Source: a virus. From it: a stretch of DNA of 64,000 nt. Below the pieces are notes generated by a model. It did no database searches and was not told the DNA's origin. It was given only the letters and a program-made list of their open reading frames with translations. The position numbers and the translations under genes are program-made. Positions 6,052-63,909 of the stretch are shown one piece after another. The first letter of the stretch is position 1, and every line of letters begins with the position of its first letter. The stretch spans positions 1 to 64,000 of IMG/VR virus record IMGVR_UViG_3300047546_001733. The stretch is one strand, 5' to 3'.

Positions 6052-6184
6052 TGGTGGAGATGGGCGGAATTGAACCGCCGTCCAAAACTCGGTGCGTCAC
6101 TTAAGACGACGGACTTTCACGTCTTTCCATGGGCAGTTATCGCTACTCGTCCATGCCGAACCTTGTCGATACCATGTCATCCCC
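6052..6184 (-). ncRNA. ssrA: Minimal tmRNA (133 nt)
   Basis: tmRNA carries alanine to stalled ribosomes. The 5' end has GGGG.TGA..TGG.ATCGAC and the 3' end has GGACGGCGGTTCAATTCC followed by CATCTCC and ACCA, both close to bacterial tmRNA ends. The 7-bp acceptor stem keeps the G3-U70 pair and A73 that AlaRS reads. The D-like loop and a 9-bp P2 helix (AAGGTTCGG with CCGAGTTTT) follow. Inside P2 are only about 60 nt forming two hairpins (CATGG/CCATG and AAGACG/CGTCTT), where bacterial tmRNAs have about 270 nt with a tag frame and pseudoknots. No frame ends in a normal AA degron; the best-placed resume codon would give Ala-His-Gly-Lys-Thr. It has its own promoter 10 nt upstream. Confidence 0.85.
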
Positions 6185-14807: not shown

Positions 14808-15072
14808 GTGACTATTATGAGAATTACATGAGAATGGCGCGCGTTACATACAGTAATTATCCGCCCGCCACATACCTAAGTGCATTACCATAGGGGGTAG
14901 GGGGTACCCTCTTTATTCTTCTACCGCTTCCAGATGCTGTATATTGGCAAATATATATTAAGCCATTGTAATAAGTGCCTTTTTTTAGGGGGTAGGGGGT
15001 GTCCGCTGGTTGCGAACCGCGCTTCGTTATGTCGAGTGGGGTTTATGGCTTCCTAATGCGGTAAAATGCTTA

Positions 15073-63640: not shown

Positions 63641-63724
63641 GCCGAGGTGGTGAAATGGCAGACACGTTAGTCTTAGAAGCTAATGACGCAAGTCATGAGG
63701 GTTCAAGTCCCTCTCTCGGCACCA
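63641..63724 (+). tRNA. tRNA-Leu (UAG)
   Basis: Acceptor GCCGAGG/TCTCGGC, anticodon loop CTTAGAA (UAG), short variable arm, T-arm GAGGG-TTCAAGT-CCCTC, A73 and encoded CCA. Reads CUA codons. Confidence 0.9.
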
Positions 63725-63726
63725 AA

Positions 63727-63909
63727 GCCACAAGATGCGAGTTGAAAACCTATCTAGTGTTCGCCTAAAGATTTTTAGAAAATCTTTACCCAGCTGGATT
63801 TCTAGAAGTTGCATCTCTACAACTTACTAGTAGGGTATTCTTGGCTATCGCGGGTGCCGTTGCACCTGAGAGAAATCTCGTGCAGGTTCGAATCCTGTCT
63901 GTGGCACCA
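63727..63909 (+). ncRNA. 183-nt tRNA-like RNA
   Basis: tRNA-type ends: GCCACA/TGTGGC, T-arm GCAGG-TTCGAAT-CCTGT, and ACCA. There is no D-arm or normal anticodon arm. Next to the acceptor is a GCGAG/CTCGT helix, then CCTA-T-CTAGT/ACTAG-TAGG, a 10-bp hairpin with TAG loop, AAGTTG/CAACTT, and GGTGC-CGTT-GCACC. Contains TTTCTAGAAG, recalling the TCTAGA loop of the four left RNAs. Two bases after tRNA-Leu, so co-transcribed. Confidence 0.7.

Follow-up and report, generated by a model that had tools for sequence, protein, structure and literature searches.

A 183-nt tRNA-like RNA with a leucine-tRNA 3' domain in a phage tRNA cluster

What kind of RNA is encoded directly behind a phage tRNA-Leu gene, where a tRNA acceptor, a T-arm and a CCA end enclose a long, structured middle region? 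The locus lies in the window, i.e. the whole 64-kb stretch of DNA that was analysed, which is part of a 72,156-bp virus record encoding phage polymerase, recombinase, reductase and terminase-like genes. The record carries tRNAs for Leu(UAG), Thr, Arg and Met; an intact tRNA-Leu(UAA), present in many relatives, was not found in it. The RNA, here called RNA C, starts 2 nt after the ordinary tRNA-Leu(UAG), which bears out the long tRNA-like RNA behind tRNA-Leu that an earlier note had proposed, and the two are presumed to be on the same transcript. Within the same cluster a gene for a Mom-family DNA-modification protein is situated between tRNA-Thr and tRNA-Arg (record 64389-65048, L002 1390-2049). 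The near-identical phage L006 is without this gene and has the two tRNAs adjacent, and the sequence comparison suggests a recent gain or loss.

The ends of RNA C are those of a tRNA (Table 1). In place of a full 7-bp acceptor it has GCCACA/UGUGGC, i.e. six pairs, followed by A.C at the seventh position; the T-arm is perfect, and the discriminator A73 precedes an encoded CCA, giving ACCA. The T-loop motif combined with CCA was matched 9 times in the window, as compared to 0.03 expected. Acceptor, T-arm and CCA, which the earlier note had described as framing the RNA, are all present in both sequence and fold.

Table 1. Positions in the window of RNA C, its proposed parts and other RNAs discussed in the text.
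Feature	Positions	Strand	Basis
tRNA-Leu (anticodon UAG), ordinary	63641..63724	+	ARAGORN; Rfam tRNA, 56 bits
RNA C, 183-nt tRNA-like RNA with encoded CCA	63727..63909	+	acceptor/T-arm/CCA; single homologue (L006)
Acceptor 5' strand GCCACAA (6 pairs, 7th A.C)	63727..63733	+	minimum-energy fold
Proposed D-stem 5' strand GCGA, pairing with 63848-63851	63737..63740	+	minimum-energy fold; geometry test
98-nt insert in proposed D-loop, three-way junction (boundaries approximate)	63742..63839	+	folded alone
Hairpin in insert, 7-nt loop UUUAGAA resembling a Leu(UAG) anticodon loop	63766..63788	+	fold
Hairpin CUAGAAGUUG...CAACUUACUAG with CTAGA motif	63802..63830	+	fold; L006 change can extend stem
UUGGCUA-UCGC, proposed D-loop 3' part (G18 G19) and D-stem 3' strand	63841..63851	+	resemblance to tRNA-Leu(UAA)
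Anticodon-position hairpin GGUGC-CGUU-GCACC, 4-nt loop, without anticodon	63853..63866	+	fold
Class II variable arm GAGA-GAAA-UCUC	63868..63879	+	fold; tRNA-Leu(UAA) comparison; covariance model
T-arm GCAGG-UUCGAAU-CCUGU	63882..63898	+	fold and T-arm/CCA pattern
Acceptor 3' strand CUGUGGC, discriminator A, CCA	63899..63909	+	sequence and fold
Left-arm RNAs: two transcripts, two T-arm RNAs each	14776-14520, 13930-13679	-	T-arm pattern

RNA C lacks a standard cloverleaf. When searched against all of Rfam it matched no tRNA (RF00005), tmRNA, riboswitch, group I intron or other family, the only RF00005 match here being the upstream tRNA-Leu (63641-63721), and ARAGORN at default score, also with introns allowed, called nothing but that tRNA-Leu. 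A single homologue was identified, in a near-identical phage (loci L006/L195, one contig) with 2 substitutions in 183 nt. Scans of IMG/VR relatives, pattern scans and BLAST against a phage collection gave no further homologues; what BLAST did match was either the 3' end of a tRNA or a short stretch. Text searches of the literature returned no report of a phage tRNA that carries a D-loop insert or lacks an anticodon. A 31-codon open reading frame within RNA C (ATG at 63735 to TAG) was set aside; by estimate a frame that long would turn up by chance in about one case in five, and the L006 sequence alters an amino acid in it.

To place RNA C among tRNAs we collected relatives via their DNA polymerase and compared RNA C with all of their tRNAs and those of the window. 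The six best local matches were all tRNA-Leu(UAA), and the best covered the last 43 nt of RNA C (35 of 43 identical), i.e. variable arm, T-arm and acceptor, with the discriminator and CCA likewise shared (e.g. with L013 17267-17352). The covariance search that had been called for was run as well, and a model built from twelve such tRNAs of relatives matched the 3' part of RNA C with an E-value of 2.4e-7, the second-best match in the window after tRNA-Leu(UAG). As its 5' acceptor strand this model uses an internal GCCGUUG and not the strand at 63727. On sequence comparison, RNA C has the 3' domain of a leucine tRNA, matching tRNA-Leu(UAA), and we infer that the entire gene descends from such a tRNA. 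Relative to it, RNA C would have gained a D-loop insert of about 98 nt and has no anticodon in its best fold. ARAGORN was also applied to insert-free versions and gave a full-length tRNA call in 39 of 60, but so did 68% of shuffles, and this test was discarded as support.

The minimum-energy fold of RNA C is stable (-58.2 kcal/mol), more so than all 200 shuffles (z -2.9). A stem GCGA/UCGC stands at the D position in this fold and encloses a loop of about 107 nt, which does not bear out the earlier description of an RNA with no D-arm. The UUGGCUA-UCGC region is identical to TGGCAGACGC of tRNA-Leu(UAA) at 7 of 10 positions, and UCGC is followed by one base, a 5-bp hairpin with the loop CGUU, one base, the variable arm and the T-arm. 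The spacing in this predicted fold fits a class II tRNA whose D-loop has taken up about 98 further bases and whose anticodon loop is three bases short. When the middle region was shuffled 40,000 times, the D-stem/anticodon-stem geometry recurred in only 66 cases (p about 0.002), in a test designed after the fold had been seen. When folded alone, the 3' part of RNA C prefers a different structure that pairs part of the CCA end. The substitution at position 93 in L006 can lengthen the stem of the hairpin that bears CTAGA. As the only homologue is near-identical, the evidence for the predicted class II fold with a D-loop insert consists of its energy and the one shuffle test. In the best fold the anticodon position has four loop bases in place of a 7-nt anticodon loop; decoding, or splicing into an ordinary tRNA, is therefore unlikely.

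On balance, RNA C is probably a stable, non-decoding RNA built on a tRNA scaffold, derived from a phage tRNA-Leu(UAA), cut from the tRNA-Leu transcript and carrying a payload domain in its D-loop. We infer its origin, processing, stability and function as follows. Acceptor, variable arm and T-arm would have been retained from the ancestral phage tRNA-Leu(UAA), the anticodon loop would have shrunk to four bases, and the D-loop would have acquired, by growth or insertion, a separate domain of about 98 nt. RNA C would be made within the tRNA-Leu transcript, its 5' end being cut by host RNase P and its 3' end trimmed at the encoded CCA. The tRNA body may protect the RNA and bring it into contact with tRNA-handling proteins, with the D-loop domain as the probable working part.

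The main rival, to which we would give a modest chance, is a decaying pseudogene, i.e. a tRNA-Leu(UAA) that was broken by an insertion and is functionless. No purifying selection on RNA C was detectable in the comparison with L006, where 2 of 183 sites differ as compared to 62 of 1968 third codon positions (p 0.17), and RNA C was found in the two near-identical phages only, both of which favour this reading. Against it, the acceptor is still intact, as are variable arm, T-arm and CCA, and the insert folded alone (-22.5 kcal/mol, z -2.2) does better than most shuffles, with 5 of 200 equally good. Phages with compact genomes also usually shed dead tRNAs fast.

Since bacterial LeuRS relies on A73 and the tertiary core, not on the anticodon, it is possible that RNA C could be charged with leucine. 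There is a small chance that it is indeed leucine-charged by the host LeuRS and, as a non-decoding RNA, would act in infection as an amino-acid donor, decoy or regulator, and that it belongs to a whole repertoire of tRNA-like RNAs without decoding function in these phages (a mini-tmRNA, the UUCUAGA RNAs, and the E and F RNAs).

It is improbable, in our view, that RNA C is an unusual decoding tRNA-Leu(UAG) with the UUUAGAA hairpin as its anticodon arm and the remainder as a giant variable region. This hairpin is common to the best fold and to an alternative fold with a short D-arm, and its loop agrees with the Leu(UAG) loop CUUAGAA in 6 of 7 bases; a Leu(UAG)-like 7-nt loop appeared in 536 of 40,000 shuffles (1.3%). 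Against this, the short-D-arm fold costs 6.3 kcal/mol more than the best fold, the D-loop would be without GG, the anticodon stem would be 8 bp, and a tRNA-Leu(UAG) is already present 2 nt upstream.

The earlier note had also grouped RNA C with the four left-arm RNAs; a kinship of this kind, with RNA C acting via the UUCUAGA motif, we consider improbable. TGGATTTCTAGA in RNA C is one insertion from the left-arm TGGATTCTAGA, a match within one edit having occurred in 0.4% of RNA C shuffles (p about 0.004), and the two kinds of RNA have in common a T-arm and a helix close to the acceptor. CTAGA alone is found in 23% of the shuffles, and the helix is one that many RNAs could share. The left-arm RNAs, like those of the relative L004/L024, share CCGURGGURCGGUAAA and a AUUCUAGA loop, but the CCGURGGURCGG hairpin is absent from RNA C. 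Moreover, in the best fold the motif lies in a stem, where CUAG pairs with CUAG, so that the unpaired CTAGA seen at first belongs to the fold that is weaker by 6.3 kcal/mol, and the 3' domain is that of tRNA-Leu. The grouping is weak and we do not place RNA C with them; its sequence, like its architecture, indicates a leucine tRNA instead.

The left-arm RNAs have features of their own. Their AUUCUAGA hairpin loop is invariant, also in L024 (13838-14020 and ~14830-14935, plus strand), and loops of this type have CUA at the would-be anticodon place. UCUAGA is self-complementary and kissing loops are therefore possible. Two L024 copies have a nearly regular cloverleaf whose anticodon arm is extended. 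The region that separates the two left-arm transcripts (~14345-14160, minus strand) has promoter-like TTGACA/ATACAAT followed by a stretch with long self-complementary arms, AAGUUAAGAGAG/CUCUCUUAACUU, which may be a further structured RNA.

It is very improbable that RNA C is a tRNA split by a small intron, whether self-splicing or removed by proteins: it is located in a tRNA cluster and its insert has a fold of its own, but no group I or other intron family in Rfam matched up to E 5, in agreement with the view that this is not a group I intron in a tRNA, ARAGORN with introns found nothing at default score, and removal of the insert leaves a 4-nt anticodon loop.

Among known systems, T4 RNA C (species 1 RNA, rnaC, 139 nt) comes closest to RNA C, both combining a location in a tRNA cluster with a tRNA-like acceptor and T-arm and no anticodon. 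The T4 RNA likewise adjoins a tRNA and has a long internal helix behind the acceptor, a variable-arm hairpin and a UUCGAAU T-arm, its 3' part being CCGGG-UUCGAAU-CCCGG. Its acceptor differs in having two U.U mismatches and it ends in ACA, whereas RNA C ends in CCA and in addition has the anticodon-position hairpin and the tRNA-Leu(UAA) 3' domain. BLAST detected no sequence homology between the two beyond the tRNA parts, and the T4 rnaC region had its listed matches in T4-like phages. In homologues of T4 RNA C from Kosakonia, Enterobacter and Yersinia phages, paired changes were read by eye from the alignment in the acceptor (A-U to G-C) and T-stem. The homologue of Enterobacter phage KKP_3262 (L205 167-262) bears the annotation tRNA-Phe(gaa), which is probably wrong. 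T4 RNA C and RNA D are situated at one end of the T4 tRNA cluster, adjoining tRNA-Arg; they are classed as late RNAs with a reported Northern blot (PMC9697503), and their role is described as unknown (PMC3014915, PMC9697503).

The tRNA-like domain of tmRNA likewise has an acceptor and a T-arm that enclose a long interior lacking a decoding anticodon. RNA C differs in lacking the UUCGAC D-loop and in having a class II variable arm, and neither Rfam nor ARAGORN gave a tmRNA match at RNA C, though Rfam found the tmRNA at 6052-6184 of the window. The latter is a mini-tmRNA of 133 nt (window 6184-6052, minus strand; L025 1691-1823, plus strand) with a tmRNA tRNA-like domain (Rfam, 71.9 bits) and an interior of only ~60 nt, too short for the usual pseudoknots. 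Judged by its sequence, the conserved GAGUA-GCG AUA ACU GCC ... ACG UGA may represent a tag of 8 codons that follows a resume-like site. Behind it in L025 (1826-2064, plus strand) follow a 162-nt RNA with a 7-bp acceptor, T-arm, CCA and long helical middle, and then a degenerate tRNA. The mini-tmRNA and T4 RNA C (L202 1409-1547, minus strand) both have GAGUAGCGnnAACU, with 12 of 14 nt in the T4 variable arm and CGAGUAGCG elsewhere, which may be chance.

RNA E of relatives (L007 16781-16895; L025 16378-16266, minus strand) occupies the same tRNA-cluster locus and shares the tRNA-like ends, an elaborated middle and a mismatched 7th acceptor pair. It differs in sequence, in having a second internal T-arm-like hairpin (GUGG-UUCGACU-CCAC) and in lacking a class II variable arm; apparent covariation was seen in its acceptor and T-stem.

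A TROVE/Ro60 protein that might bind RNA C was sought in the record without a PF05731 match, a weak negative because the search also missed a relative's TROVE-like DUF2828 protein. Two relatives (L008 6005-7637 and L041 16465-18210) encode a DUF2828/DUF7788 vWA protein of TROVE-like organisation, the Pfam run having covered the L008 copy. Upstream of the gene are 2 or 4 tandem small hairpins with GGUUnCAGCA, an arrangement reminiscent of a Ro60-Y RNA module.

The two stable RNAs of the T4 tRNA cluster have been without an assigned role for decades. Finding the same plan in an unrelated phage, with tRNA-Leu(UAA) as the likely ancestor, suggests a route by which such RNAs arise: the anticodon would be lost and a domain would grow in the D-loop, on a tRNA body that may be processed and protected by enzymes of the host. 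With a nameable ancestor, the roles of such RNAs become testable.
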